Of a stretch of DNA of 21,329 nt, positions 2 through 21,103 are shown piece by piece. The translations under genes and the position numbers were made by a program. Origin of the DNA: a virus; IMG/VR virus record IMGVR_UViG_3300046003_008578, positions 1 to 21,329 of that record. The stretch is one strand, 5' to 3'. Numbering within the stretch: the first letter of the stretch is position 1; each line of letters begins with the position of its first letter. The notes beneath the pieces were generated by a model that saw nothing but the letters and a program-made list of their open reading frames with translations, was not told the DNA's origin and searched no databases.

Positions 2-904
2 AACGATTTATTTTTAGCGGAAAACAGTCAAGGAAAATTTTGCGTGAAATTGTCCCTCGACAAGCAAAACTCAAATCTTGAAAAAGAATTTTTAATCTTA
101 AAGGATAATTTGCATAGGAAAATATCCTCCTTTCCTTTGTTTTACGGTGTTACTGATAGCTTTTCACCAGTAGAGTATAGCGTTTGCGCATATATACCAG
201 CGCCGAATTTATTTGATTTTAGTTTGCAGCCAATCATTGAATCAGAAGAAGCTATTCCATACTTTTTCGCAAATCTAAGCAGGTTTTCCGCAAACAGTGT
301 TAAAAGTTCTATCTTTGATCACTTGAATTATTATTTGTCCTTTGACATATTAAAAATTCCAGAAGTTAATCCCGATTGGATTAAGAACCATCAAGCAATA
401 AAAAACATAATCAAAGACCAAGTTCTTTTTCTTCAAAAAATAATTAAGGAAAAACTTAGTAAATTTACCTTCTCGCAAAATGATTTTTGCCATGGAAATT
501 TAAATTCGTCAAGCATCTTGGCTTTTGGCGAGCATTTGCACGCTATCAATTATGAGAATTCTTATAAGGGAGATTGGGTTTTAGAACTCTTGTGTTTGAA
601 ATATGAACTCTTTTACCCAAATAACTTTGAAAAAGAAATCTTAAATAAAACAGAAAGCTTGCTGCAAACCAATTTCAACAACCATAAAATATCAGAAATA
701 TCTGATCTTGCGTGCTATTTAAATCTGCTAAAACTGATGGTAGAGTATTTAACAGAAGTTTATGTTTTGAAATGCGCTCGCGAACACAAGATTCTTCAGT
801 GCGGAATTAAGCTGAGTAAAAACTACGACCATTTCTATCAACTACCCGATTTCGATAAAAAGCTAAAACCAATAGCAGAATTTTTCGTAGAAAGTGTAAT
901 TTAA
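2..904 (+). CDS. APH/choline-kinase-like protein, probable pseudokinase, 5' end missing
   Basis: The reading frame is open from base 2, so the gene starts upstream of the window; the GTG at 44 is only an internal Val. The visible 300 residues look like the aminoglycoside phosphotransferase/choline kinase fold. A beta-strand pair NDLFLAEN...GKFCVKLS carries the ATP-lysine candidate, LEKEF supplies the helix-C glutamate, and the C-lobe has an HGNLNSSSIL loop (491-520) followed by INYE (545-556). Active family members read HGDxxxxN and then D in an IDxE motif. Here all three catalytic or metal positions are changed: Asp to Asn (497-499), Asn to Ser (512-514) and Asp to Asn (548-550). I infer a nucleotide-binding or scaffolding pseudokinase rather than an active kinase. 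The stop lies 4 bp before the next gene, which suggests one transcription unit. The substrate is unknown. Confidence 0.7.
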   Translation, partial: NDLFLAENSQGKFCVKLSLDKQNSNLEKEFLILKDNLHRKISSFPLFYGVTDSFSPVEYSVCAYIPAPNLFDFSLQPIIESEEAIPYFFANLSRFSANSVKSSIFDHLNYYLSFDILKIPEVNPDWIKNHQAIKNIIKDQVLFLQKIIKEKLSKFTFSQNDFCHGNLNSSSILAFGEHLHAINYENSYKGDWVLELLCLKYELFYPNNFEKEILNKTESLLQTNFNNHKISEISDLACYLNLLKLMVEYLTEVYVLKCAREHKILQCGIKLSKNYDHFYQLPDFDKKLKPIAEFFVESVI

Positions 905-2698: not shown

Positions 2699-3382
2699 AT
2701 GCCTTACTTAAACCACAACATTCCTACGATTACTTGTTTAATTCGTAACGAATTTTTATTCAATCACGAAAAAGGCCATGGCGAATACACGCCAGCCGAT
2801 GTTCATTCCGTCAGTTCAATTGAAAAGCGCGTGCCACTCTTCGAGGCGTATTTAAATAATGGTGTAAACTGGACGCGCCGACCAATCACAGCATTTTGCT
2901 GGAAACCATGCGATCCTGTGCCTTTAGAGCACGCAATGTATTGGGACTGCTTCTCGCCCTATATTGACGTTCAGATTCGCCAAAGACTGCGCGGATTACG
3001 CGCCAAGCTCATTACACCCTCAAATACTAAAGAGTGCGGGGAATACATGTTTACGCTCGATTGGGGCTGGGAGAATAAAAGCGTTCTAGACACTAACTTT
3101 AGCGAAACGCCCGAACATAAATGTGCTCACGTCTTTAAAATGGATAATGGCAATTTTTACGCTTATCCAAACAATCGCATCATCTGGCATGATGACGCTT
3201 GGGTTTACAAACCAATTGATCAAAACCCAGGATATAAAATTGATTTAAATATTTACTCTGTAGAAAATAAGAGAAACAAGTTCACGGACTATAGCTACAT
3301 GACTGAATTTTCAGATGCGCCAATCAATCATACAGAACCTCAAACTGCCGCAGTGCAAACTAGCACCATCAAAAATACCTAA
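2699..3382 (+). CDS. Unrecognised 227-aa protein upstream of SET gene
   Basis: I do not recognise the family. The protein is 227 residues, soluble-looking, and rich in Trp, Tyr, His and Pro. Notable segments are an aromatic/Cys stretch AFCWKPCDPVPLEHAMYWDC (about residues 65-84), a basic stretch RQRLRGLRAKL (about 93-104) and a central MFTLDWGWENK. The last 25 residues are low complexity (Thr, Gln, Asn) and overlap the next gene, a SET-domain protein, by 68 nt. The gene starts 3 bp after the fiber-like gene, so it is probably translated in the same unit. A structural or fiber-associated role, or a partner or substrate for the SET protein, is possible from context alone. No catalytic motif is evident. 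Confidence 0.7.
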   Translation: MPYLNHNIPTITCLIRNEFLFNHEKGHGEYTPADVHSVSSIEKRVPLFEAYLNNGVNWTRRPITAFCWKPCDPVPLEHAMYWDCFSPYIDVQIRQRLRGLRAKLITPSNTKECGEYMFTLDWGWENKSVLDTNFSETPEHKCAHVFKMDNGNFYAYPNNRIIWHDDAWVYKPIDQNPGYKIDLNIYSVENKRNKFTDYSYMTEFSDAPINHTEPQTAAVQTSTIKNT

Positions 3383-3722
3383 CGCTGGAGTAGGTGTTTT
3401 TGCTTTGACCGATATTCCTGAAGGATACCCTATATTTGGCCCTAAAGGATTCTTGAATTTTATTGAATGGGAGGAGATAGCAAACTGCGATTTTTCAGTC
3501 AAGCAATACATTAGAAACGTTTGCCACTCTAATGAAGTTGGTTTTTGGATAGACGGTCATTTAGACAGGATAGACATGAGCTACTACGTTAACCATTCGG
3601 AATTGCCGAATTTATGGCATGACAAAACTGCCGATGTTTATTATGCCGATAAAGACATTAAACAAGGAGAAGAACTTTGCTGCTTTTATCCGATTGAGGA
3701 GAGAGATTGGTTAACAGAATAA
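3315..3722 (+). CDS. SET-domain protein, putative lysine methyltransferase
   Basis: This is a 135-residue protein that is almost entirely a minimal SET domain, a fold that transfers methyl from S-adenosylmethionine to protein lysines. The visible motifs in order are GVGVFALTDIPEG (25-37, SAM-binding N-terminal motif), YVNHSELPN (91-99, the NHSxxPN pseudoknot motif) and ADKDIKQGEELCCFY (111-125), with Tyr125 at the expected active-site position. No post-SET cysteine cluster is present. The ATG at 3315 is the only Met before the domain; it gives a 68-nt overlap with the upstream gene, which suggests coupled translation. SET proteins occur sporadically in bacteria and phages, and the target here is unknown. 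The 3' end overlaps the convergent spike gene by 12 bp. Confidence 0.85.
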   Translation: MRQSIIQNLKLPQCKLAPSKIPNAGVGVFALTDIPEGYPIFGPKGFLNFIEWEEIANCDFSVKQYIRNVCHSNEVGFWIDGHLDRIDMSYYVNHSELPNLWHDKTADVYYADKDIKQGEELCCFYPIEERDWLTE

Positions 3723-9773: not shown

Positions 9774-11294
9774 TTACCAATTCTGCAAAAGAACTCTTCC
9801 CCATAAATCATTTCCTGTAGCGGCAAATAAATATTCGCCACTAACAGATATTTGACCGATTTTACCATTTGATGTGGAAGAGAGCGGCGGGTTAACAAAA
9901 GAGCAGAAAATTCCAGTTTGACCAGAGGTTACAAATGATCCAGTCTCATTTTTGAGAACATAAGCTCCAGAAATATCATCTTTTGTAGGAATTTCTTTCC
10001 ATTGCCCAGATTGAACAAGTAAAAGTTTTTGTCCAGAAGCTCCAGTTTGATAAATTAAACCACCATCAAAAGTCGTTTCTTGAGCAGTGGCGTTACCACT
10101 ATAAAACAATCCAGTTCGATCTTCAAAACTCAAAACAGGAGGAATCCCGAAACCATAATTTAAAACATCAGGCTCTTCTTTTAAATATGCTGGAACGCCA
10201 GAAGTGTAGATGTATCCGCTGCCAAAATCATCGTAAGGAACAAATTGATAATAAATAACTTGATTACTAGGAATCTCATCAGCGAATATAGAGAATGATT
10301 GACCTAAACCATTATCCAAGAATGGCACGTTTTTAAATAACGAAAAACCATCTAATGAATAATAGTCAACACTTTCACTAGCGCCAGTATAAACATCCAC
10401 GCTTCTAGGAATGTAGTTAAAAGCAGCATCATCGCTCAAAGTGAGGCTAAAAAGAACTTCTCCAGTTAATCCCGAAAGAGTTCCTGTAGAAAAATCAGAA
10501 ACTTCAACGTCACTTATTTGAGCAGGAATATGAAAAACCGTTGCTAAGACAGAGTTTTCTAAACCCTCGTTTGTGACATTAAATAATATATCATAATACC
10601 TTTGCGATCCAGAACTGCCAAAATAAGAAGCGTTTTCTTCTTGAGTGAAAGTAAATTTTAAACTCTCTTGATTAGTCTTAAAGTTTTCAGTAACCAAGAA
10701 AGGGTCAACATTTCCAACAACTGCCCCAGTTGTGTATAAGGAAGCTCTATAATAAAAATTAGCTAAACCTTGCGCGAACTGCAATTCATTATCAATAATG
10801 TTGTCATAAACATCTTGATATTGAAGAGTCACGGAAACATCTTTCGTGGGAGAAACTATAAAAGCAGTTCCAGTTCCAACTGGCGACTCGGAAGGCTTAA
10901 ACGAATTAATAGGTTCTGGATAAGAAGGAGGAGCGGGTGGCGGAGGTATTGGCGGCGGCGTCGGAGGTGACGGCGTAGGTGTCGGCGTGGGCGGCGTAGG
11001 CGACGGAGTAGGTGGGGTAGGCGACGGAGTAGGCGACGGCGGCGGCGTTGTTGGCGGCGGCGTTGTTGGCGGCGGCGTTGTTGGCGGCGGCGTTGTTGGC
11101 GGCGGCGTTGTTGGCGGCGGCGTTGTTGGCGGCGGCGTTGTTGGCGGCGGCGTTGTTGGCGGCGGCGTTGTTGGCGGCGCTGTAGTTGGCGGCGCTGTAG
11201 TTGGCGGCGCTGTAGTTGGCGGCGCTGTAGTTGGCGGAGCCGTTGTTGGTGGAGCCGTTGTTGGTGTTATTGGCGGTGGTGTAGTCGTAGCCAT
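9774..11294 (-). CDS. Tail fiber with Pro/Thr pentapeptide array
   Basis: This 506-residue protein follows J. After MATTTPPPITP come six TTAPP and nine TTPPP pentapeptides (residues 12-86), then a further proline-rich stretch (SPTPSPTPP and PPIPPPPAPP) to about residue 125. Such a segment should be an extended polyproline-II stalk. Residues about 125-400 are beta-rich (SVTLQYQDVYD, FNVTNEGLENSVLATVFHIP, YYQFVPYDDFGSGYIYTSGV). The last 110 residues (GLIYQTGASGQKLLLVQSGQ ... NDLWGRVLLQNW) resemble short fiber-tip domains and contain TG units like those of the 970-aa fiber. It starts 9 bp after the J stop, so it probably attaches to or near the tail tip. The Pro/Thr stalk could be O-glycosylated, but nothing in the sequence proves that. 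Confidence 0.7.
   Translation of the reverse strand: MATTTPPPITPTTAPPTTAPPTTAPPTTAPPTTAPPTTAPPTTPPPTTPPPTTPPPTTPPPTTPPPTTPPPTTPPPTTPPPTTPPPSPTPSPTPPTPSPTPPTPTPTPSPPTPPPIPPPPAPPSYPEPINSFKPSESPVGTGTAFIVSPTKDVSVTLQYQDVYDNIIDNELQFAQGLANFYYRASLYTTGAVVGNVDPFLVTENFKTNQESLKFTFTQEENASYFGSSGSQRYYDILFNVTNEGLENSVLATVFHIPAQISDVEVSDFSTGTLSGLTGEVLFSLTLSDDAAFNYIPRSVDVYTGASESVDYYSLDGFSLFKNVPFLDNGLGQSFSIFADEIPSNQVIYYQFVPYDDFGSGYIYTSGVPAYLKEEPDVLNYGFGIPPVLSFEDRTGLFYSGNATAQETTFDGGLIYQTGASGQKLLLVQSGQWKEIPTKDDISGAYVLKNETGSFVTSGQTGIFCSFVNPPLSSTSNGKIGQISVSGEYLFAATGNDLWGRVLLQNW
11041..11265 (-). repeat. 15-bp tandem repeat array, 15 units (TTPPP/TTAPP)
   Basis: There are exactly fifteen 15-bp units inside the start of the fiber gene. 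Read on the plus strand, nine consecutive units are identical (ggcggcgttgttggc, 11041-11175), then four are identical to each other (ggcgctgtagttggc, 11176-11235), then two (ggagccgttgttggt, 11236-11265). The block-wise identity indicates recent expansion by slippage or unequal recombination. The units are GC-rich inside an AT-rich genome, and every unit keeps the reading frame. Confidence 0.95.
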
Positions 11295-11303
11295 ACTTAT
11301 TTA

Positions 11304-14300
11304 TCAAGCGGGGTTAATAGCGAATCCTTTTACAATTCCATTACTGCGTTTAGGAGCAATATAAGATAATACCTTAAACGTTTTTGCATTAGTGGCAGAA
11401 ATTGGGTTAGGATAAATTCCAGTTTGCACAGCGGTCACTTTTAAAGTGTAGTTTCCAACTTCAGCTTGGTCTTCAAACGTGAATGAGGTTTCACTTGTCT
11501 GGACTTTAGTGCTCCTATATTTTGGAGAAATGAGTTCAACATTGTATGCGTTAGCCCCATTCACCGAGTCCCAAGAACCAGAGATGTCAACAATATCATT
11601 TTGCGCGTCGAAATTCCCAGTAGTAAAAGTGGTAATCAATGGAACCCCTTTTAATTCATAAATAAATTGGTTGGAAACTTTAAAACCAGAACCTTCATTT
11701 ACGAAAGTGTCGCGAACAGAAGGGAAGTAGTTAAAAAACTCATTAAGGTTTTCGCCAACTTCGATTTCAGCGAATTTACCAGTATCAAATTTAGAAGCAA
11801 TAACCTCGTATTCATTAAGGTTCAATTCTTTAATTGATTGAATCTTGTAGATTTCTTGAGCGGTGTTGGCTAGAGTAATGGAACAAGGAGTTCCAATCTT
11901 TGCTTGTTGAAGAAGAGGTAAGCCAGAATTAGAAGATGAAGAATCTAATATTAATTTAACCCCATAAGAACTAAAGTCATAACCAATGGCATTTAATGAA
12001 ACATTCTGAGGAATGTCCGTTTGATAAACTTCAGCGATGCTTAATTTCGCAGGGCTTTTTGCCAAATTATAAAAGTCTTCTGACTGATATTTTCCAGTAG
12101 GAACAAGAATAGAAATTTGTCCAGTTAATCCTGTAGGGGAGAAAGACTCTGCCGAAACATCAATATTTGTGTGAACAATATTATTGGCAAGGTCAATGTC
12201 TAAAACTCGGCCAACATATTTTTTCAATGTTCTGAGTTCGTCATTAATAGCGATCAAGTCTCCTGGCCTACATAAGAGAGTTTCTAATCCAGCGGAGAAT
12301 TGAACGTTTTGATCTTCATTAATTGTTGAATAAATAATGTGCTGACCAATTCGCTGTGCATGAGCGCGGCTAGTTACGCCAAACGTTTGAGCAGAAGTTC
12401 TAAGAATACCTCTTACTTTAATATCGTCAGGGTCTTCAACATATTCGATTTTCTCCTTGAACAAATCGTCGCGATCCAAATAAGAAACTTCAATAACATT
12501 ATACTGCGAATCTCTACGACTGTTGGTATATGAGAAAATTCCATCTTTCACATTTGAATTGTTAAACTGAGCCATGATTGGCTTTAACCTATCATTTGTA
12601 AAGTTAATCTCAGAGTTGGAATAAAACATGTTACCTCGGAAAGAGGAAACAATGGATTGAACCATGTCAAATACGTTAGTCTTATCAGCAATAGCGCCAT
12701 TGAAACCGTATCGCGGTTCTTTGCCGCCATTTGCTGATGGCACGCCAACAAATAAACCGTCACCGTCAACAGCATCACAGTAACGACCAATCTTATAAAG
12801 TTCCCAATAATTAACTTGATCGGGGTTAATAAAGTTACCCAAACCATATCTTCTGTTTATCAAAAGATCAAAAAGAATCCATGCGGGATTATCTGTCCAA
12901 GCTAATTTAAATGTGCCGTCCCAATTGCCATCGTAAACTCTCTTCTCTTCAGTGGTTGCTGACGCAAACTCAGCGGCAGTTAAATATCTCCTATCTTTGC
13001 CGTTTGGCAAAAGGGGAAAATAATTACTAGGCACGAAAACTTTCTTAAATCTGGCATCATAGCTTCGCGCAGGAATTTGAGGTAAGCTACGAGCGTCCAA
13101 CTTCAACCCGCAAATTGTTGAATATGGGTAAGAAAACGGTAGGTTAACAACTTCCGTCACTTTTTCTAAAGAGATTTCCCTCTTCACAAGAGAAGAGTAA
13201 CTCTCATAAGTTGTTCTATAAACGCGAACAAACCTTAACTGATCTGGTTGATAAGGGGGTAAAACAAGAGGAGCGGCAACACTTTTAGTGTTTCCGACAA
13301 TGAACCGAGAATATTTTTGAATGATTTGAGGAGTGTTATTTTCATCTCTTCCAATGTCAATTGTCACTGGAGATTCTACAGAACCTCTTACTTGATACTC
13401 TCTAGATTCAGTTACAATTTCATCACCATCTTTAGTTTGGTAGCCAAGCTCAATTTTAAAGGCAATAAGCGAAGGAATTGATGTTCCAACTTCAACTTCT
13501 TGATCTTCTTTTTTACCAAACCTTCTCAAAAAAACAGTTTTATGAGCTATATCTCTGAGCACTCTAATGGAAAAACTCAAATAAACACTATCAACATTAG
13601 GATTATTAACAATATGTGTAGTAGCTATTGATGGCTCAGAATAAGCAGCAATGTATTGATTATTCCAATTACTAAATTTGAAACTGGCTCCTCTGAAGTC
13701 ATCACTACCTTCAGTTCTTTCACTATATGCTATTGCTGATTTAAATAATGCGGCGAGCGGACTGTCTTCAAAAAAATATGTAAGTCTTTTGTTTGCATTA
13801 TCATTATCAATAAATATTTCAAAACTTTGTAAACTATTTCTGTTAGTAATAAATCCATTTCCGTTAGAAGAATTTATCGCCGTTTTCGTTATAGGATTAT
13901 TACTCCCAATTTTAACGCTTACAGTTTGGCTAAATTTTTTATTATTTAAATTAAGGCTAAAATATATGAAAGTTGAAGATGAATTGGTTATTTTAGCGTC
14001 ATCAGGTACGTCTTCGCCTACTAAATTACCTTTAGCGTATGGAACATTAACAGAATATCTAAAATTTAAAATTTCAGCATCACTTCCTGTTCCTAAATAG
14101 GATTCAAGATATGTAAACGAACCACCTTTATTTAAAATTCTTCTATAGTTAGAATTTACAGTCTTTAACCAGCCTGAGCCAGCAGATGTAAAACCATTAT
14201 ATAGACCTGTGTTTGCAACTTTAATTAGATTAGCTTCTTCTTCGGAAATAGTGTCCGAAAAAAATCGCTCATTAACTCCAGAAATTCCTTGGCTAGAGTT

Positions 14301-15473
14301 TGGATTAAAAGAAGTGTTAATATAAGAAGACTTGCCAGCAAGAAGACTTTTTATTGTTCTACCTTTAGCAAAAGGCCCACGCAACTGCACTCCATAAGAT
14401 TTGTCACTGTAAGTTTTAGAAAAAGCGCCGAGAGGTTTTTGCAATTCAAAACCGTCTCTAATCTCCATACTGGCGTTGCCAACATTATACTTGCTTCCAC
14501 TGGAAAAAACTTTAAAATAATTAAGATTTTTTATTACAGCATCAATTGAATTTTTTAAAGGAACTTCATTGTCTTTATAAAGAAAAAGATAAACAGAACC
14601 GTTTAAATATGAAATAGATAAGTTTGCAGCTTCACCTGCGCTTAAATTAAAATAAGTCAAGTTTAATTTTCGCTGTGGTGGTAAAAATCTACGAACCTGC
14701 AACTCTGTAGATTCTAAAGGAACATAAACTTGATTAAATACATCGTCTTCTAAAACAGTAACAGTATCATAACTATAGTTTTCAATCAAAGGGGCAATCG
14801 AACCGTCTTTATTGAATGAAATCTTAACGCAAAAAAATGGATAATCAGATTCGAGCCTTTCTGGAATATCTGACAATAGATACGATTGGACTTCTTTTAC
14901 TGAATTATAATTAAATTTAGAATTAAGAGATCGAAATTGTTGATAATAAACGTTTTGACTAGATACGTTAGTAGAATAACTTGACAAGCCACTTTTAATA
15001 GCTAAAATATCTTGATAAACGCTAGAGGCAATATCTAATTTTGAATTCAAAACAGAATAAGAAATTCCCGAAACAGAGCCAGTCAAATTAGCAACAACTT
15101 CAGAGCTTAAACGTTTTTCAACGAATTCATTATTCTCATAAAATTGACCAGAAAAACTAGCGCCAATAAAATCAAGGTGGCCAGTAAAAACTGCATCTCC
15201 AGAATATTGAGACGATTGTTTAATTGGAGCGTCTTCTAAATAAATAGCTTCAAATATGCCAACGTCTTCGACATACTCACCGCGTTGATTAACTAAACCG
15301 TCAATAACACCATCTGAAATAAGGTCAATACTCTCCACATATTCATAAGAAGAAATAGCTTGAAGGTCGCCTAGTTTCGGCGGCTTGAGAGTTGGCGGCG
15401 GCGGCGGATCAGGTTTTTTAGGGCCACCAGCACCAGCAAGATTAGATGAATATCTTATAGAAAAATGACTCAT
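11304..15473 (-). CDS. J: Tail tip / central fiber protein J (lambda gpJ-like)
   Basis: At 1389 residues this is longer than lambda gpJ (about 1130) but has the same plan. It forms the tail tip hub and, in lambda, contacts the receptor. The N-terminus has a Gly-rich stretch and a Pro tract (KPDPPPPPTLKPPK, about 20-33), then the family-typical SSYEYVESIDLISDGVIDGL and YLEDAPI. The conserved core lies at about residues 845-1075: AWTDNPAWILFDLLINRRYG, YCDAVDGDG, FSYTNSRRDSQYNVIEVSY and LLCRPGDLIAI. A fibronectin-III-like segment (SWDSVNGANAYNVELIS ... NYTLKVTAVQTG) lies at about 1300-1360. Residues about 300-800 include a poorly conserved region that could carry lineage-specific inserts. The start ATGA overlaps the stop of I. 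The C-terminus is short after the FN3-like domain; receptor specificity may be carried by the fibers downstream. Confidence 0.9.
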   Translation of the reverse strand: MSHFSIRYSSNLAGAGGPKKPDPPPPPTLKPPKLGDLQAISSYEYVESIDLISDGVIDGLVNQRGEYVEDVGIFEAIYLEDAPIKQSSQYSGDAVFTGHLDFIGASFSGQFYENNEFVEKRLSSEVVANLTGSVSGISYSVLNSKLDIASSVYQDILAIKSGLSSYSTNVSSQNVYYQQFRSLNSKFNYNSVKEVQSYLLSDIPERLESDYPFFCVKISFNKDGSIAPLIENYSYDTVTVLEDDVFNQVYVPLESTELQVRRFLPPQRKLNLTYFNLSAGEAANLSISYLNGSVYLFLYKDNEVPLKNSIDAVIKNLNYFKVFSSGSKYNVGNASMEIRDGFELQKPLGAFSKTYSDKSYGVQLRGPFAKGRTIKSLLAGKSSYINTSFNPNSSQGISGVNERFFSDTISEEEANLIKVANTGLYNGFTSAGSGWLKTVNSNYRRILNKGGSFTYLESYLGTGSDAEILNFRYSVNVPYAKGNLVGEDVPDDAKITNSSSTFIYFSLNLNNKKFSQTVSVKIGSNNPITKTAINSSNGNGFITNRNSLQSFEIFIDNDNANKRLTYFFEDSPLAALFKSAIAYSERTEGSDDFRGASFKFSNWNNQYIAAYSEPSIATTHIVNNPNVDSVYLSFSIRVLRDIAHKTVFLRRFGKKEDQEVEVGTSIPSLIAFKIELGYQTKDGDEIVTESREYQVRGSVESPVTIDIGRDENNTPQIIQKYSRFIVGNTKSVAAPLVLPPYQPDQLRFVRVYRTTYESYSSLVKREISLEKVTEVVNLPFSYPYSTICGLKLDARSLPQIPARSYDARFKKVFVPSNYFPLLPNGKDRRYLTAAEFASATTEEKRVYDGNWDGTFKLAWTDNPAWILFDLLINRRYGLGNFINPDQVNYWELYKIGRYCDAVDGDGLFVGVPSANGGKEPRYGFNGAIADKTNVFDMVQSIVSSFRGNMFYSNSEINFTNDRLKPIMAQFNNSNVKDGIFSYTNSRRDSQYNVIEVSYLDRDDLFKEKIEYVEDPDDIKVRGILRTSAQTFGVTSRAHAQRIGQHIIYSTINEDQNVQFSAGLETLLCRPGDLIAINDELRTLKKYVGRVLDIDLANNIVHTNIDVSAESFSPTGLTGQISILVPTGKYQSEDFYNLAKSPAKLSIAEVYQTDIPQNVSLNAIGYDFSSYGVKLILDSSSSNSGLPLLQQAKIGTPCSITLANTAQEIYKIQSIKELNLNEYEVIASKFDTGKFAEIEVGENLNEFFNYFPSVRDTFVNEGSGFKVSNQFIYELKGVPLITTFTTGNFDAQNDIVDISGSWDSVNGANAYNVELISPKYRSTKVQTSETSFTFEDQAEVGNYTLKVTAVQTGIYPNPISATNAKTFKVLSYIAPKRSNGIVKGFAINPA

Positions 15474-16117
15474 GAAAGTAAATTAAGCGAAGATGTTGAA
15501 ATCAAATTAGAGTTAGAGTTATCAACGAAAGCTGATTGATTTGTTGATTTTTTAGTAGAAGCATTATTAAACTCGTCTCCAAGAGTCATATTTAGAGGGA
15601 ATGATTTCACAGTAGATTGCACAACAAAAGAGCCAACGCGCAAACGTCCATAAACAAGAGGAACAGGATTACCTTGTTCAAGAATATTTTCTCGGTTACT
15701 AAATGCTAAAGATCGGTTTAATGCAGCGCTTGTTGCTTCTGCTCCAGGGATTTGTGGATATTCCATTTTGCCAGCTTGAACATAAGAGTAAACAGCGGAA
15801 CCAATAGACAGAGCAAGACTTCCCCAAAAAATCAACCCTTGAACTAAAGTAAAACCAAGAAAACCTGATCCTAAAATACAAGGAACAAAATCTATTTTTT
15901 TAATTTTATCAGAAAATTGTTCATGGTTTTTTACCCAGCGATCATTCACGACAAAACTATAATGAATATTTTTTTGGGCTAACTTTTTAAGCTCAAGAGG
16001 AAAATCGTCATGATTAGCCTCCATAGCTAGCAACAAATCTTTCGGTCTGGAAAGCGCCATTTTATGCACTTTACCATACTTTTTAGCCAAAATACCATGG
16101 AAATGAACTTCTGTCAT
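15470..16117 (-). CDS. I: Tail assembly protein I (lambda gpI-like)
   Basis: This is a 215-residue lambda I-family protein, required for tail-tip assembly with J. The N-terminal 75 residues look like the ubiquitin-like part (EVHFHGILAKKYGKVHKMAL, RPKDLLLAMEAN, NIHYSFVVND). They are followed by a hydrophobic Gly/Ala-rich region at about 78-113 (FVPCILGSGFLGF, LIFWGSLALSIGSAVYSY) and the family hallmark NPVPLVYGRLRVGSFVVQST at about 150-169. The C-terminal 40 residues are Ser/Asn-rich and probably disordered. The gene overlaps K and J by ATGA at both ends, indicating translational coupling in the order K-I-J. This is the only gene in the tail operon with a weak purine run (AAAAGG) ahead of its start. 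Confidence 0.85.
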   Translation of the reverse strand: MTEVHFHGILAKKYGKVHKMALSRPKDLLLAMEANHDDFPLELKKLAQKNIHYSFVVNDRWVKNHEQFSDKIKKIDFVPCILGSGFLGFTLVQGLIFWGSLALSIGSAVYSYVQAGKMEYPQIPGAEATSAALNRSLAFSNRENILEQGNPVPLVYGRLRVGSFVVQSTVKSFPLNMTLGDEFNNASTKKSTNQSAFVDNSNSNLISTSSLNLLS

Positions 16118-16518
16118 AATAAACCTTTTACCTTGTTCAGAATATTTACATCTATTTCATGATTTTGAGGCTCATAAATCGCAAATTTATCAGTTAGAAG
16201 GGAATAAATAAGAGAAACCAAACAGCAAGCATCTGCATTTGCTATGTCTAAGTCAGAAAATTCCTCATTAGAACTAGGGTGCGAATGAAAAATAAAAAGA
16301 AGTTCATTTTCACTTTTAAATCTTAAAAAATCCAAAGGATCAACGCAAAAAAACGAATTAGGATCAGGGGATCGGTTGGCTAAAATTTGAGCCACGAACT
16401 TGCCATCTTTAACACCAATGAAAGCGCAGCACTCAATTGTGCAATATTTATTGCTATGATCCTTTAAAAAAGAAAGAATGTCTTTGAAATTATTTGCGAT
16501 TTTTGTAGGTAGCTCCAT
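16114..16518 (-). CDS. K: JAMM/MPN-domain tail protein (lambda gpK N-terminal half)
   Basis: This is a 134-residue protein from the ATG at 16518. An upstream in-frame ATG at 16581 would add 21 residues lying deep inside L, and MELPTK fits the domain start better. It carries a complete JAMM metallopeptidase signature: Glu29 (TIECCAF), then His78-Ser-His80-Pro with Ser88 and Asp91, an exact HxHx7SxxD spacing. Lambda gpK pairs this domain with a C-terminal NlpC/P60 peptidoglycan hydrolase; here the protein stops after the JAMM domain, so the NlpC/P60 part is absent. The usual role is in tail-tip assembly or processing, and the peptidase target is unknown. It overlaps the L gene by 29 nt and I by 4 nt (ATGA). 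Confidence 0.88.
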   Translation of the reverse strand: MELPTKIANNFKDILSFLKDHSNKYCTIECCAFIGVKDGKFVAQILANRSPDPNSFFCVDPLDFLRFKSENELLFIFHSHPSSNEEFSDLDIANADACCLVSLIYSLLTDKFAIYEPQNHEIDVNILNKVKGLL

Positions 16519-17509
16519 ATTGATATTTGTCCGTGCCTGGGAAACCTCCGAAGGGTAAATAAGCATTTGATGCATCAGCATTAAGTGATGCTGGCACTAA
16601 ATTGTAAACAGTGTATAAGCCACTGGACTCTCCAGAATAACCAGAATAAGTGATGCCAGTGTTAGCGAATCTTTTGCGGCAAGAGTCAACAGTTTTAGAG
16701 CAACCGTCTTTTTCCCAAGGCGAAGCATCTAAGCTTGGGTGATTGTTTTCATCAGCCCTATGATTTTGCTTGCAAACATGCCACGTTCTATATGGGTCTT
16801 TGTCTGTGCTCACATAAGCGACATCGCCACTATAATAAAGCTTTCCATAGTTCCACTCGTTCTCTGTAGTTTGAAAGTTGAAAGCGCCTGTTGGAACATG
16901 AGTAAAATCAACATTGTTATCTTGACAAACAGGGCGACCAAAGTAATTGCATCCCAAACCTCTATACTGCCAGTAGCAATATCTTGACAAAACTAATCGC
17001 CCAGGAATAGTGAAATTTTCCAAGTCAAACGGTGCAGTTAGTTCAAACTCTACAAGTGACCAATTTTCCTGAGTCTTTTGAGAAATAATGTAAGAGTCCT
17101 TGCTGATTTCCGCAGTTGGGTCAGAAACTCCATAAGGATTAACGCCACCGTCAAAATTAACGTCGTCAATGTATTTGAGGAAAATCTTGATTCTTTCAAT
17201 ACGAGCATGTTTAAAATCATTTTTTCGGCGCAATACTTGGCTGATTGTCAAGCTATCGTTTGAGATTCTAATCTTTGGACGATTGATTCTGTTAAAAATG
17301 TTTGATTCAAAATCCTCAACTTCAACAGCGATAGGCAAGTAGGGAATGCTGTTCAAGACGATTTTGCCATTCAAACCATTTGAGCAAGGATGAAATGGAA
17401 AGAAAGAGTCTGGCTCATTCACCGTATCGTAGTAGAGCTTGTAAAACTCCAAGATTGCTGTTGGCTCCAAATCAACTAAATCATTGGAAATTCTATTGTT
17501 AATTGGCAT
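16490..17509 (-). CDS. L: Minor tail protein L (lambda gpL-like) with CBM5/12-like insert
   Basis: This 339-residue protein belongs to the lambda gpL family, a tail-tip protein that binds an Fe-S cluster through four cysteines. The N-terminus (LVDLEPTAILEFYKLYYD) and the middle (LRRKNDFKHARIERIKIF, ENWSLVEFELTAPFDLENF) are family-typical. Two cysteine pairs are visible, Cys178/Cys187 (YCYWQYRGLGC) and Cys270/Cys277 (CSKTVDSCRKRF). The spacings of 9 and 7 match what I remember for lambda (173/182 and 205/212). Between the pairs is an insert of about 60 residues (216-268) resembling a CBM5/12 chitin-binding type-3 fold: WNYGKLYYSGDVAYV, DPYRTWHVCKQNH, then SPWEK. The start is the only option before an in-frame stop; its ATG shares CATG with the divergent gene. 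No tape-measure or M gene precedes it in the window. Confidence 0.88.
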   Translation of the reverse strand: MPINNRISNDLVDLEPTAILEFYKLYYDTVNEPDSFFPFHPCSNGLNGKIVLNSIPYLPIAVEVEDFESNIFNRINRPKIRISNDSLTISQVLRRKNDFKHARIERIKIFLKYIDDVNFDGGVNPYGVSDPTAEISKDSYIISQKTQENWSLVEFELTAPFDLENFTIPGRLVLSRYCYWQYRGLGCNYFGRPVCQDNNVDFTHVPTGAFNFQTTENEWNYGKLYYSGDVAYVSTDKDPYRTWHVCKQNHRADENNHPSLDASPWEKDGCSKTVDSCRKRFANTGITYSGYSGESSGLYTVYNLVPASLNADASNAYLPFGGFPGTDKYQYGATYKNRK

Positions 17510-17510
17510 G
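17507..17510. other. Divergent start codons sharing one CATG palindrome
   Basis: The L gene (minus) starts at 17509 and the GNAT-like gene (plus) at 17508, so both ATG codons are read from the same CATG. L has no alternative start before an in-frame stop upstream. There is no intergenic DNA for promoters, so the promoter of each operon must lie inside the other's coding sequence. A candidate A/T-rich element (TATAAATAATAA, 17513-17524) lies just inside the plus gene; I cannot assign it as a promoter with confidence. Confidence 0.7.
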
Positions 17511-18038
17511 ACTATAAATAATAACGAGTGTAACTATAAATTACACGAATTTCTGGGCGATTTCTCTGAAGAGAAAAAACTACTACAACTTTATCTCAAA
17601 TTTTATGAAAAATCTAAACCACTTCCTGTAAGGGCCAAAACTGTTTCTGGCCAAAGAGAAGAGTGGGTTCGTTATTTTAACAAGCTGATCGAAACAAATA
17701 AAATAATCTATGCTGAATCAAATGGCCGCATTATAGGTTTTGTAGCTTTTGATCTTAAATTAAGTTCTTTGGAAGTGCCAGAAGATTTAATTGAAATGAT
17801 TCAGGCAAAACCTCAGTCACAATTTTGTGAGTTTGTTTTCGCGGCCTCTGATTCTTCACTATCTTTGCTTAAAAAAGTGGTCGCAGATATTTTTCAGTTG
17901 CTAAAAGAAAAGCACGGGGTATTATATATAGTGGGCAACATCAACCGCGAACACAAAAAGAACAAATACATTAAAACTATCCAAAGAATTTTTGGCTTTA
18001 AAGTTTTTCAAAACTTCGCGCTGCATGATATACCGTAA
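17508..18038 (+). CDS. GNAT acetyltransferase-like protein
   Basis: This is a 176-residue protein from the ATG at 17508; a TTG at 17484 would extend it into L and is not needed. The pattern is that of a small GNAT fold: a helical N-terminus, a hairpin of strands KIIYAESNGRIIGFVAFDLK (about 65-84), a central strand SQFCEFVFAASD, a long helix SLLKKVVADIFQLLKEK (about 119-135), then LYIVGNINREHKKNKYI and a terminal FGFKVFQNF, the usual 'GF' strand of GNATs. The acetyl-CoA pyrophosphate loop (R/QxxGxG/A) is not visible, so binding of acetyl-CoA is uncertain. It heads the plus-strand operon and overlaps the nuclease-like gene by 14 nt. The acceptor could be an amine on a sugar or protein. It could also be a catalytically lapsed GNAT. 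Confidence 0.5.
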   Translation: MTINNNECNYKLHEFLGDFSEEKKLLQLYLKFYEKSKPLPVRAKTVSGQREEWVRYFNKLIETNKIIYAESNGRIIGFVAFDLKLSSLEVPEDLIEMIQAKPQSQFCEFVFAASDSSLSLLKKVVADIFQLLKEKHGVLYIVGNINREHKKNKYIKTIQRIFGFKVFQNFALHDIP

Positions 18039-18543
18039 TCGTTTTGACCGAACAGGAGAGTGTTCTGAAAAAGGCCACGATGCCGAAAGCTTGTTTATTT
18101 CAATTGCCGAAAAACAAGGTTGGAAAGCAGTAAAAGCTGATCGAAAACAGCAGCTAGCTCACATTGATGTCTTCCTAACTAAAGAAAACTATCCAACACA
18201 TTCTTTAGATATTAAAGCTCAGAAGAAGATCAAGAGAACCGATTCTGACGTTAATGACGAATTGATTTGGGTAGAGTTTTTAAACGTCGCTGGAAATGGC
18301 GGATGGCTAGTTGGAGCGGCTGAATACATTGCTTTTGAGCGCGAAAATGATTTTATTATAGTGAATAGAGCAGCTTTATGGAAACTCTGTATGGAAAAGG
18401 TAGATCAAAATGCCAGAGTAACGCAATCCAAACACGCGCTCTACAAGATATACCAGAGAAAAGATCGTAAAGATGAAATTTCAATCATTAAATTTTCAGA
18501 TATTTTTGAAAACTTGAAATTTAAAGTCTGGCCAAAATGTTAG
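18025..18543 (+). CDS. PD-(D/E)XK nuclease-like protein
   Basis: This is a 172-residue protein from the ATG at 18025, with 14-nt overlap with the preceding gene; a longer TTG start at 17992 would lie within that gene. The order of residues fits the PD-(D/E)XK nuclease fold: Glu21 in helix 1 (HDAESLFISIAEKQGWKAV), Asp48 (AHIDVFL) and a strand with Asp62-x-Lys64 (SLDIKAQKK). A conserved-looking block WVEFLNVAGNGGWLVGAAEY (about 82-101) and YIAFERENDFIIVNRAALW follow. Similar proteins occur uncharacterised in large tailed phages, as far as I recall. Likely substrates are DNA junctions or host or foreign DNA, but this is inference. No DNA-binding extra domain is seen. The stop overlaps the sulfotransferase start by 7 nt. 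Confidence 0.65.
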   Translation: MIYRNRFDRTGECSEKGHDAESLFISIAEKQGWKAVKADRKQQLAHIDVFLTKENYPTHSLDIKAQKKIKRTDSDVNDELIWVEFLNVAGNGGWLVGAAEYIAFERENDFIIVNRAALWKLCMEKVDQNARVTQSKHALYKIYQRKDRKDEISIIKFSDIFENLKFKVWPKC

Positions 18544-19190
18544 AGATTTCTTCTTGCAAGAACAAATGGATTTGGAGCTTGATATTTATCAGGATTCCAA
18601 AAAATGCTAGCACCTCTCTCTACAAGCATTTGGGAGATTTTAATTTGGTCAAAAAGCACGAAAAGTCTTTTAATGTTTTTCTCAAGAATAAAGTTTATCG
18701 CGGTTGGTTTTCCCCTACTCACGCGAAACCTAATGAAATCGCTCAGGTTTTAGGCAACGCCGTGCGCAATTACATGTCTTTTGCTGTTGTTAGAAACCCT
18801 TATGATCGAATGGTTTCCATGTATCGTTTTGCGGTAGAAAATGAATTGGGTAAAATCTACGGCATGGATTCAGACATTTCTTTCACGCAGTTCTGTGAAA
18901 TTTTAAACGATAAATATTTAAATAAAGATAAAAATTTCATCGCGACCCACTCTCAAACCGAGTGGACAGAAGGCATTTTTACTCCTAATTTCATTTTAAA
19001 ATTCGAAAATTTGAAAAAAGATTTTGAAAATATGCTATTAGAATGCAATATAAAACATATAGCGTCAAGCATTCCTCACGAAAATTCATCCAGCAGAACC
19101 CATTATAGAGATTACTATAACTCTGATTGTAAAAAAATAACAGAAAAAATCTTTGAAAAAGACCTTGACACTTTCAAATACCTGTATTAA
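18537..19190 (+). CDS. Sulfotransferase family protein (PAPS-dependent)
   Basis: This 217-residue protein has the hallmarks of the sulfotransferase family, which moves sulfate from PAPS to sugars or proteins. The 5'-phosphosulfate loop is FIRIPKNASTSL (17-28; compare HIPKTAGTSL), and the 3'-phosphate motif is FAVVRNPYDRMVSMYRF (82-98) with Arg86 and Ser94. HAKPNEI (62-68) matches the substrate-side segment after the first helix. ILKFENLKKDF (153-163) and a C-terminal THYRDYYN...F.KDLDTFKYLY complete the usual Sulfotransfer_2-like layout. No signal peptide or membrane anchor is seen, so it acts in the host cytoplasm. It overlaps the nuclease-like gene by 7 nt and is followed after 8 bp by a small gene and a glycosyltransferase, which suggests a glycan substrate. 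PAPS must come from the host or from genes outside the window. Confidence 0.88.
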   Translation: MLEISSCKNKWIWSLIFIRIPKNASTSLYKHLGDFNLVKKHEKSFNVFLKNKVYRGWFSPTHAKPNEIAQVLGNAVRNYMSFAVVRNPYDRMVSMYRFAVENELGKIYGMDSDISFTQFCEILNDKYLNKDKNFIATHSQTEWTEGIFTPNFILKFENLKKDFENMLLECNIKHIASSIPHENSSSRTHYRDYYNSDCKKITEKIFEKDLDTFKYLY

Positions 19191-19198
19191 AGTATTCC

Positions 19199-19447
19199 AT
19201 GATCGGAAAAATTAAAATTATTGGAGCAAATAATTCCACCCATATCGGATGGATGGAAAAAGATTTTGAAAACTGCAAAATCATGCACGAATACGATAAG
19301 GTTCACAAAGTTTCTGTTCCAGATCGGGGCGAGTTCACTTTCGAAATCACTAAGACTTTCATTGTTGAAGATCATTTTATTTTTGAAGGCTATGCCAGCA
19401 TCGAAGATTCCCTCGGAAAACTAGCTTTTGAATTTCGTATTGGATGA
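19199..19447 (+). CDS. Small beta-rich protein, function unknown
   Basis: This is an 82-residue protein with no family I recognise. Its alternating hydrophobic pattern (KIKIIGANN, FTFEITKTFIVEDHFIFEGY, LGKLAFEFRIG) suggests a small beta-sheet protein. Charged residues are frequent, and there is no cysteine cluster, signal peptide or membrane segment. It lies 8 bp after the sulfotransferase and its stop overlaps the glycosyltransferase start as ATGA, so it is translated in the same operon. The tight coupling suggests a role tied to one of these two enzymes, but nothing more can be said. Confidence 0.7.
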   Translation: MIGKIKIIGANNSTHIGWMEKDFENCKIMHEYDKVHKVSVPDRGEFTFEITKTFIVEDHFIFEGYASIEDSLGKLAFEFRIG

Positions 19448-20364
19448 AATTTCTCATCATAGACTCTCATAAAGGTTCAATTAAAGAGCCTCAGAACTTG
19501 CATTGGCTCAATGCTAAACAAATAAAAGACAATTTAATCTCTCTTGGGCATGAAGTTGATTTGATTTGGAGCTATCCAACAATCAATGAAAACATTAAAA
19601 GCAGCTACGATAGAATTATTTTTAACCATGCTAGTCATTACTCTTATGTTGATTACGCTTGGCTACAAGGTAGTCCAGACGCTAAACTTTTTCACATCAC
19701 AAATGAATACAATTTAGGCGAGCCAAGAGCCTTGTGGATGGCGTTGAAAAATGGTCGCCGCTACGAAGTAATTGCCAATCATCAGCCTCAAGTGAGTAAA
19801 ATTGTACAAAAATATGTTGAAAATTGGCACTTTGTTAATTTAAATACCTTAATTTTTGATCCTATTCTACCGAATAGACAGAAAAAAGGATGCATTTACT
19901 ACGGCTCTTTTAGGAAAAATCGCGAAACTTCATTCCGTAAATATTTAAAAGATTATGTCACCGTATCCACCCATATCAAAAACAGAGAAAAATTTCAAAA
20001 CATCGGAGTCAACGGGCCTTTCATTGATAGAATCAATTGGTCAAAAGATGGCCTCATGGATTTTAAAACTTCTCTTTACATAGAAGACGAAATCACTCAC
20101 GAAAGCTACAACTGCTTGGCGAACAGATTTTATGAGAGCCTCAACTACAACGTTCTTCCTTTGTTCGACGCCTCTTGTAAAAATACCATTTTTTTGTCTG
20201 GTTATGATGTGCCTGATTATTTCATCGTTGATAATGAATCAACTTTGAGAGAGTTGAGTGAAGACACTCCTGTTTCCTACCAATGCTATCTACAACGATG
20301 GAAGGAAAAAGCGGCCAACGAAAAAAGAAACACGTTGACAAACATCGCAAATATAGTATGTTAA
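19444..20364 (+). CDS. GT-B-like glycosyltransferase
   Basis: This 306-residue protein resembles the GT-B glycosyltransferases seen in large phages and in CgeB/YkvP-like families. The N-terminal half begins MKFLIIDSHKG, a nucleotide-fold first strand, and includes NLISLGHEVDLIW and YDRIIFNHAS, typical alternating strands and helices. The second half starts at about residue 150 (CIYYGSFRKNRETSFRKYL, VSTHIKNREKFQNIG). It includes NRFYESLNYNVLPLFD (227-242), equivalent to the RxFEALxxGxLPL segment that binds the nucleotide sugar. A classical EX7E motif is not evident. The sugar donor and acceptor are unknown. Together with the sulfotransferase it points to modification of a glycan or glycosylated virion protein. 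The start overlaps the previous stop (ATGA). Confidence 0.65.
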   Translation: MKFLIIDSHKGSIKEPQNLHWLNAKQIKDNLISLGHEVDLIWSYPTINENIKSSYDRIIFNHASHYSYVDYAWLQGSPDAKLFHITNEYNLGEPRALWMALKNGRRYEVIANHQPQVSKIVQKYVENWHFVNLNTLIFDPILPNRQKKGCIYYGSFRKNRETSFRKYLKDYVTVSTHIKNREKFQNIGVNGPFIDRINWSKDGLMDFKTSLYIEDEITHESYNCLANRFYESLNYNVLPLFDASCKNTIFLSGYDVPDYFIVDNESTLRELSEDTPVSYQCYLQRWKEKAANEKRNTLTNIANIVC

Positions 20365-20404: not shown

Positions 20405-20653
20405 ATGAGCAAGCTAATTGCTAATGCAATTGAGAAAGCAAAGCCAGAGCAGATTGACCTCTGCTGGGCAATTCTAAAATACAAGGAAATCGGCGTTTAC
20501 CGAAAGGTAAAGTCTCTTTGTTCAGCATTCAATCTTTCATTTGAAAAGGTTATCGCTGAACTCCCACAAGAGGAAGGTCGAGTGATTGATTGGGAAACCC
20601 GTCATTTCATCCACGATTGCCTAATCGAAGTTTCTAAGTCAAACAAAGAATAA
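20405..20653 (+). CDS. Small mainly helical protein, function unknown
   Basis: This is an 82-residue soluble protein predicted by eye to be mostly helical (ANAIEKAKPEQIDLCWAIL, VYRKVKSLCSAFNL, TRHFIHDCLIEVSKSNKE). No known domain is recognised. It is separated from the glycosyltransferase by 40 bp, the largest gap on the plus strand here, and has a strongly A-rich leader (aaacaataaaaataa) with no Shine-Dalgarno motif. The next gene follows after 14 bp. A small regulatory or early-type phage protein is possible, without direct evidence. Confidence 0.7.
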   Translation: MSKLIANAIEKAKPEQIDLCWAILKYKEIGVYRKVKSLCSAFNLSFEKVIAELPQEEGRVIDWETRHFIHDCLIEVSKSNKE

Positions 20654-20667
20654 ATAAATAAAAAAAT

Positions 20668-20868
20668 ATGAAGCAAAAGCCAGGAATTAGTTGGTACACA
20701 GTTTATAATCAAAAAGGCGATCATCAAGCCTCTTACGACATGTGCTTTCATGAAGCTTATGTTTGGGCACTTGATTGCGCGAAGCATATTGGAGGCTACA
20801 TTTGCGAATGTGGTGATGGCAAAGAAGAAATGATCATCTTCAACACAAAGAAGGGTGAAAATTCTTGA
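20668..20868 (+). CDS. Small protein, function unknown
   Basis: This 66-residue protein starts GISWYTVYNQKGDHQASYDM and ends with KEEMIIFNTKKG. Aromatic and Cys/His residues are frequent in the middle (MCFHEAYVWALDCAKHIGGY, CECGDG), but the spacing does not match a standard zinc finger. It has no signal peptide. Its ATG follows an A/T-only leader (aataaataaataaaaaaat). It is part of a row of three short genes between the glycosyltransferase and a lipoprotein, and no specific function can be assigned. Confidence 0.65.
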   Translation: MKQKPGISWYTVYNQKGDHQASYDMCFHEAYVWALDCAKHIGGYICECGDGKEEMIIFNTKKGENS

Positions 20869-20923
20869 TTCCATTCCTCTTGTTTTAGAGCTTTTAGTCA
20901 CATACTTTAAGCTCCGATGCAAG

Positions 20924-21103
20924 ATGGCAACTTACGAAGTCATTGAACGCTTTGATGCTCGCCTAGACTCCCTCGATAAAAAGAGGGAGTCTCTTAGGAA
21001 GACTCCTACGCCAGAAGCTCAAAAAGAAGCTTCGAAAATCACTGATGAAATTGTAGAAGAGAAAGTCAAATTCAAACTATTTTGGGAAGACATTTCAAAA
21101 TGA
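20924..21103 (+). CDS. Small coiled-coil-like protein, 59 aa
   Basis: I chose the ATG at 20924 (MATYEVIERFDARLD). The longer GTG start at 20855 would add a hydrophobic, out-of-character segment overlapping the previous gene. The 59 residues are strongly charged with heptad-like hydrophobic positions (VIERFDARLDSLDKKRESLR, ASKITDEIVEEKVKFKLFWE), suggesting a helical hairpin or coiled coil. No family is recognised. The stop TGA overlaps the start of the lipoprotein gene as ATGA, so the two are translationally coupled. If the lipoprotein is an outer-membrane spanin, this gene would occupy the position of its partner but lacks the expected membrane anchor. A 10-bp inverted repeat lies inside it. 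Confidence 0.6.
   Translation: MATYEVIERFDARLDSLDKKRESLRKTPTPEAQKEASKITDEIVEEKVKFKLFWEDISK
20965..20992. repeat. Perfect 10-bp inverted repeat with 8-nt loop
   Basis: agactccctc (20965-20974) and gagggagtct (20983-20992) are exact reverse complements separated by gataaaaa. Outside a 3-nt bulge, CCTA (20962-20965) can also pair with TAGG (20995-20998), competing for one base. It lies within the coding sequence of the 59-aa gene. No T-run follows, so it does not look like an intrinsic terminator. Confidence 0.8.

Follow-up and report, generated by a model that had tools for sequence, protein, structure and literature searches.

Gene content and conservation of the block

The window analysed here is the whole 21,329-base stretch of the IMG/VR virus record IMGVR_UViG_3300046003_008578, a genome fragment without end repeats. 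Five genes on its plus strand, which we call A to E (Table 1), include one for a sulfotransferase (C) and one for a glycosyltransferase (E). They belong to an accessory gene island of an uncultured siphophage lineage, transcribed away from the neighbouring tail-tip operon. The open reading frames (ORFs) of A and B overlap by 14 nucleotides (nt), those of B and C by 7 nt and those of D and E by 4 nt (ATGA), with a gap of 8 nt between C and D. The picture of five tightly overlapping genes given by the first-pass annotation, made from the sequence alone, therefore holds, with no gap or overlap above 14 nt, and the five genes are translationally coupled and under purifying selection. The start of B was placed at the ATG at 18025, and the upstream TTG at 17992 was rejected, because every homologue begins at the former. 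Genes F, G and H continue the series, and the block is therefore larger than five genes.

Relatives were gathered by using E, C and B to scan viral contigs, and all window genes were compared with them by tblastn. The 37 close IMG/VR loci obtained, some of which are contigs that stop inside the block and some near-duplicates, have E identities of 71–100%. In every one of them the order A-B-(C)-D-E-F-G-H is kept, on the same strand, beside TapL-NlpC-TapI-TipJ; A, B, D and E were found in 37/37 and C in 35/37. The ratio of nonsynonymous to synonymous substitution (dN/dS) is mostly 0.03–0.3 for the block genes, which indicates that they are functional, and the shared order and strand across 37 related loci together with the low dN/dS argue that the block is more than a chance arrangement. 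No record of the searched isolate collection holds the block, and a literature search found no description of such a sulfotransferase-glycosyltransferase pairing. Each of the enzyme classes is known, but their combination has not been described from an isolate.

Gene A stands head-to-head with TapL, as it does in every close relative. A single CATG palindrome (window 17506-17511) holds the overlapping start codons of both genes and is kept in all clade-1 loci (for example L002:8065/8066 and L005:4404/4405); a promoter or ribosome-binding site of either gene would have to lie within the coding sequence of the other.

Table 1. Positions and assignments of the block genes and of other genes in the window
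Gene	Position	Strand	Assignment
A	17508-18038	+	GNAT-fold protein, probably catalytically degenerate
B	18025-18543	+	PD-(D/E)XK-like putative nuclease; most widespread block gene
C	18537-19190	+	PAPS-dependent carbohydrate-type sulfotransferase, assigned by sequence; optional, allele-swapped cassette
D	19199-19447	+	Conserved 82-aa protein; homologues kept in clades without C or E
E	19444-20364	+	GT-B glycosyltransferase, assigned by model; closest known fold T4 DNA beta-glucosyltransferase
F	20405-20653	+	Conserved 82-aa protein, continues block; order kept in relatives
G	20668-20868	+	Conserved 66-aa protein
H	20855-21103	+	Conserved 82-aa protein overlapping G
TapL, tail-tip protein L	16490-17509	-	Matches minor tail protein L / tail tip assembly protein L as annotated in lambda-like phages (tblastn)
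NlpC/Mov34-like tail-tip gene	16114-16581	-	Named by position and conservation; sits between TapL and TapI throughout the relatives
TapI-like tail-tip gene	15470-16117	-	Conservation in relatives
TipJ-like central tail-tip/host-specificity protein	11304-15473	-	Size, position, conservation
SET gene	3315-3722		PF00856 4.8e-10
Kinase-like gene	44-904		HGN replaces HxD catalytic loop; 47% identical homologue in relative G001

Assignment of the block genes

As the first-pass annotation had proposed, C is by its sequence a member of the carbohydrate-type sulfotransferases that use 3'-phosphoadenosine 5'-phosphosulfate (PAPS). It matches the Pfam family PF03567 (Sulfotransfer_2) over its whole length (1.8e-18, 68.1 bits against a cut-off of 22) as well as PHROG 3347 (1.2e-18), and it retains a P(K/R)xxSTS loop, an RNPxDR...S motif and an invariant His62. 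Residues P21, S25-T26-S27, R86-N87-P88, D90-R91 and S94, which make up the 5'-phosphosulfate loop and the 3'-phosphate motif for PAPS, are invariant in 22 sequences. In carbohydrate sulfotransferases the two motifs are the elements that bind PAPS, and His62 is the probable base.

Gene E has no family match in Pfam or PHROG and none in the PDB by sequence. An AlphaFold2 model built with 23 homologues (predicted local distance difference test, pLDDT, 87) displays a GT-B fold, which identifies E at the level of the model as a GT-B glycosyltransferase and agrees with the earlier GT-B-like call. The first-ranked PDB structure in a Foldseek search with this model is T4 DNA beta-glucosyltransferase (BGT, gene b-gt; 1c3j, E 3e-7, template modelling (TM) score 0.62), followed by PimA, WaaG, GtfC and others, with T4 alpha-glucosyltransferase (AGT) lower down; in a viral fold library, glycosyltransferase group 1 proteins of uncultured phages rank first. 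A profile alignment of E with T4 b-gt by hhalign (probability 56%, E 1.2e-4) brings the GSFR (GSFRxxxR) and R..E motifs into register, leaves the N-terminal half unaligned and did not locate an equivalent of the catalytic base D100. Residues R157, R160, R228 and E231, invariant in 23 homologues of E, correspond to R191, R195, R269 and E272 of BGT, with an offset of one residue between R195 and R160; in BGT these residues hold the uridine diphosphate (UDP). A search of bacterial and archaeal genomes with E gave a single match, on a T4-like contig that had been placed in the bin of an archaeal metagenome-assembled genome; for that reason it assigns no host.

Searches of Pfam, PHROG and PDB sequences returned no significant family for A, B or D. 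The AlphaFold2 model of A (pLDDT 89) has GNAT topology, with GCN5, PCAF and PseH as the best Foldseek matches (E about 3e-7). The GNAT-like call thus stands for the fold, whereas the Q/R-x-x-G-x-G/A pyrophosphate loop that would hold coenzyme A (CoA) between beta4 and alpha3 is absent, with no conserved glycine at that place in 24 homologues. Since the fold is present without the CoA loop, acetylation by A is unlikely, A is probably a non-acetylating GNAT-fold protein, and the acetylation of virion proteins suggested earlier was rejected as a leading idea. In B, residues E21, D48 and D62-x-K64, invariant in 18 homologues, form a PD-(D/E)XK motif, which makes it a putative nuclease, as first annotated, albeit one outside any matched family. 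Relatives of B are encoded on 230 viral contigs, and homologues of D follow B in both clade 2 and clade 3; we infer that B and D are separate core genes and not steps of a glycan pathway.

The first-pass annotation had also drawn the SET and kinase-like genes from the other side of the tail genes into the same enzyme set. The SET assignment is sound, and the kinase-like gene, first annotated as a pseudokinase, matches no Pfam family. In relative G001 (91.6 kb) the homologues of both lie at ~78-82 kb, beside the same genes for a 67-aa protein, a fibre and a 227-aa protein as in the window, about 44 kb from the block at ~33-35 kb, which speaks against a tie between them and the block. Elsewhere in the window, positions 10906-11364 encode a proline-threonine repeat (PTT/APPTT) at the N terminus of a 506-aa tail protein, where three frames are open for ~400 nt.

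Cassette behaviour and glycosyltransferase pairings of the sulfotransferases

Pairs of near-identical phages differ in certain genes only, and A and C stand out as the variable genes of the block. Gene A falls to 55.6-55.8% nt identity in the pairs L019/L021, L018/L034 and L018/L024 while B to H remain at 92-100%, and C falls to 61-62% in L023/L027, L034/L016 and L034/L037, where most neighbours are at 74-97%; in addition, the first half of E contains a stretch that drops to 71-83% in L015/L020 and L018/L034. Variability of this kind in A and C is what one would expect where genes meet diverse hosts or defences. In partial Mantel tests, distances in A track the C-terminal part of TipJ (r 0.59, p 0.002, n = 14) and do so unevenly along the protein, a covariation that we treat as a suggestive lead only, given some 40 such tests in all and small n. 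Gene C is cleanly absent from two of the close loci, L006 and L036, both of which carry E, and L006 is otherwise 88-99% nt identical to L005 across A to F.

Beyond the close relatives the block comes apart. Hidden Markov model (HMM) searches of 80 loci bearing B gave the patterns ABCDE (26), ABCE (9), ABDE (2), BD (16), BCD (8), BC (4) and others, counts in which D is under-called where ORFs overlap and in which clade-3 homologues of A are too diverged for the A HMM. Clade 2 (for example L066, L073 and L120-L131) is without A and C; there TapL faces B, followed by a D homologue, an IMP dehydrogenase/GMP reductase gene (PF00478, 1.3e-45), a GH46 gene (PF01374, 3.5e-14) and F, and E lies 5-7 kb off, beside a homologue of a 67-aa window gene. 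The IMP dehydrogenase/GMP reductase and GH46 chitosanase-like genes fill the slot of C and E across many contigs (L066:1122-2743, L073:1347-2961). Clade 3 (L132, L134, L140, L145, L148 and others) has B, C, D and, in the same slot as in the window, an A homologue (hhalign 95%, 1.9e-8), with C at 47-50% identity to that of the window and no E. A Mom-family gene (PF25680, down to 1.7e-36) lies 0.9-1.6 kb downstream of the clade-3 sulfotransferase, recognised by Pfam in L140 (8035-8688) and L145 (8775-9500) and by sequence likeness in L148 (8806-9453). In clade 4 (L043-L047) C has 36-37% identity and lies next to TapL, B, D and E are absent, and L046 carries a Sulfotransfer_3 gene at a greater distance. 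Downstream of the clade-4 sulfotransferase (L044:8144-9910, L046:11514-12587) lie genes for leucine-rich-repeat proteins of BspA type (LRR_5, down to 3e-109), possibly receptor-binding proteins; the one in L046 is between the two sulfotransferase genes.

On account of this dissociation we rejected a fixed five-gene pathway. The first-pass annotation had itself held that finding the genes scattered independently in relatives would speak against its enzyme set, and this is partly what was found: the five genes occur together in close relatives, but they are broken up in clades 2-4, and C is missing even from two close loci. What survives of the proposed glycan-modifying set beside the tail is the pairing of sulfotransferases with glycosyltransferases at tail-module edges, while the five genes and the SET and kinase-like genes do not make up one set.

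These pairings extend beyond C and E. Among the C-positive records of clade-3 type, 9/12 carry a GT14 Core-2/I-branching glycosyltransferase (9.3e-27 in L148). Relative G001 has three sulfotransferases, the second of which (ST2, PF03567 1.5e-12) has an ORF overlapping that of a GT8 gene (4e-11), which in turn starts 1 nt after the fibre gene; this GT8+ST2 cassette is also present in G003 and G004 and absent from the examined stretches of G006 and G007. On the opposite strand of G001, at the far side of the tail fibre (L163:6501-14480), a weak GNAT match, a putative GT9-like gene, a cupin, a GT1 gene (5e-5), the third sulfotransferase (ST3) and a further glycosyltransferase-like ORF form a candidate glycan biosynthesis cluster. 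Sulfotransferases are thus paired with three unrelated types of glycosyltransferase (C+E, C+GT14 and GT8+ST2). Gene C, like ST2, comes and goes as a cassette, and this, with the swapping of C alleles, is what a specificity gene in an arms race would be expected to show. That three unrelated pairings should occur at tail borders is the main argument for a role in glycan modification and against pure coincidence.

Surface glycan or DNA as the possible target

We favour, with a probability of about 0.4, a reading in which, under the direction of the phage, a surface glycan or glycoprotein receives a sugar from E and a sulfate from C. During infection E would transfer a sugar from a UDP-sugar to an acceptor chosen by the phage, and C, drawing PAPS from the assimilatory sulfate pathway of the host, would add a sulfate ester to that sugar or to a neighbouring one. 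Together they would give a glycan of negative charge, displayed either by the host envelope or by the tail or fibre of the virion; the repeated association with the tail module points towards surfaces related to adsorption. A would act here as a GNAT-fold protein, probably non-acetylating, that co-varies with the tail tip. This reading is backed by the retained PAPS-loop residues of C and UDP-site residues of E, by the pairings of glycosyltransferases with sulfotransferases, by the cassette behaviour and allele swapping of C, by the tail-module link, seen also in clade 4 where the sulfotransferase adjoins TapL, and by the likely identity of the host. Relatives encode DUF1501, PSCyt2 (DUF1549) and PSD1 (DUF1553) proteins (L161, that is G001:1-20000, and L073:5282-6646), an otherwise unexplained phage cargo and a hint at the host. 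PSCyt2, PSD1 and DUF1501 are signature genes of Planctomycetota and Verrucomicrobiota, and a PVC (Planctomycetota/Verrucomicrobiota) host is likely. Freshwater Verrucomicrobia have PSCyt and PSD domains of planctomycete type (PMC5615132), and sulfated exopolymers resembling glycosaminoglycans are produced by Pontiella, a member of the Kiritimatiellae within the Verrucomicrobiota (PMC7356697).

Several observations weigh against a surface target. E and C are not always found together, since C is absent from L006 and L036, clade 3 has C without E and clade 2 has E without C, and distances in C track no tail protein in the partial Mantel tests with background controlled. By its model, E is closer to the DNA glucosyltransferases of phages than to enzymes of the cell surface, so its acceptor may be DNA, and distant E homologues lie among genes of DNA metabolism: beside DNA polymerase in the T4-like contig L160; in another T4-like contig (L079:2928-6063) directly after DNA polymerase, between a DPPY-type and a second ORF that both appear to be DNA methyltransferase-like; and before a putative DnaB-like helicase gene in L081.

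These same contexts favour the main alternative, in our view somewhat less probable than the surface reading, in which E acts like T4 BGT on a modified base of the phage DNA as a guard against restriction and C is an unrelated neighbour in a mixed accessory island. The first-ranked fold of BGT, the appearance of AGT in the same list and the conserved UDP-site residues fit such an enzyme, as does the absence of C from two E-positive loci. So does the proximity of E to ThyX, which lies within ~2-4.5 kb of it in clades 1 and 2, even though E is parted from B and D in clade 2, and which was not found in clade-3 genomes lacking E. The fold is common to all GT-B enzymes, however, and a TM score of ~0.6 therefore does not fix the acceptor. 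Nor did the relatives show a recognisable route to a modified base: searches of as many as 21 of them, the longest at 91.6 kb, found no dCMP/dUMP hydroxymethylase of ThyA type (PF00303) and no C5 methyltransferase (PF00145), with positive controls, and no TET/JBP match (PF12851), for which the positive control was silent too. The genome of the window is itself a fragment and a ThyX is present, which limits the weight of these negatives. In Cronobacter phage S13, where E has a homologue, there is a single ThyA-type gene, against td and gene 42 in T4, and no b-gt. A role for E as a 5-hydroxymethylcytosine glucosyltransferase by the T4 route was rejected because no hydroxymethylase was found in the genomes searched.

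Were C to sulfate a sugar that E had attached to a DNA base, the product would be sulfated phage DNA, a hypermodification not described before and, to our knowledge, without precedent. The BGT-like character of E, separated from C by one small gene (D) in 35 loci, the position of a sulfotransferase just upstream of DNA polymerase and UvsX in the isolate Stenotrophomonas phage DLP_6 and the coupling of C with Mom-family DNA-modification genes in clade 3 all lean this way, but the near-complete relatives have no known precursor-base pathway and each of the two genes occurs in the absence of the other, and we regard this outcome as very improbable. It is unlikely, to a lesser degree, that the block is a moron island assembled by chance, whose genes act independently as a tail-linked pseudo-GNAT (A), a nuclease (B), a surface-modifying sulfotransferase (C) and a glycosyltransferase (E), with synteny kept only by common transcription beside the tail operon. 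Genes do drop out singly, clade 2 holds IMP dehydrogenase and GH46 genes in the same slot, and A tracks part of TipJ while C tracks nothing in the tail; the repeated pairing of sulfotransferases with different glycosyltransferases is what such an assembly would leave unaccounted for.

Relation to known systems

A sulfotransferase class thus recurs in fixed places at the tail-module borders of several clades, near differing glycosyltransferases, and even near-identical phages can differ in its allele or in whether they have it. This provides a concrete case for sulfated glycans in phage biology, whether as virion decoration, as host-surface modification or, less likely, as DNA hypermodification.

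The closest structural parallels to E are T4 b-gt (1c3j) and T4 alpha-glucosyltransferase, which share its predicted GT-B fold, the former as the best PDB match with an aligned donor-site motif. The setting differs, as no hydroxymethylase of gene-42 type was found in relatives of the window and E in this lineage lies beside tail genes and not replication genes. The arabinosyl-hydroxymethylcytosine system of RB69 (PMC6024577) likewise involves a phage GT-B enzyme proposed for DNA modification and found by fold, not by sequence, but RB69 makes its hydroxymethylcytosine with enzymes of T4 type, of which the relatives of the window encode no recognisable one. For decoration of the virion, the F1 mycobacteriophages Che8 and Rita (Freeman 2023, as cited in PMC11256854) offer a parallel in phage-encoded glycosyltransferases that decorate capsid proteins; they differ in that the capsid and not the tail is modified, by other glycosyltransferases, and no sulfotransferase is reported.

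Phage-borne sulfotransferases have been noted in metagenomic viral genomes (MVGs) of OM43 phages, whose authors call their function in phages unclear (PMC10580990); these belong to Sulfotransfer_3 and are not described as paired with a glycosyltransferase. The related sulfotransferase of DLP_6, also not described as glycosyltransferase-paired, sits in the replication region. With the carbohydrate sulfotransferases of PF03567 and PHROG 3347, C shares a whole-length family match and the PAPS-binding motifs, and it differs from them as a short stand-alone phage protein that is allele-swapped and encoded beside tail-tip genes.

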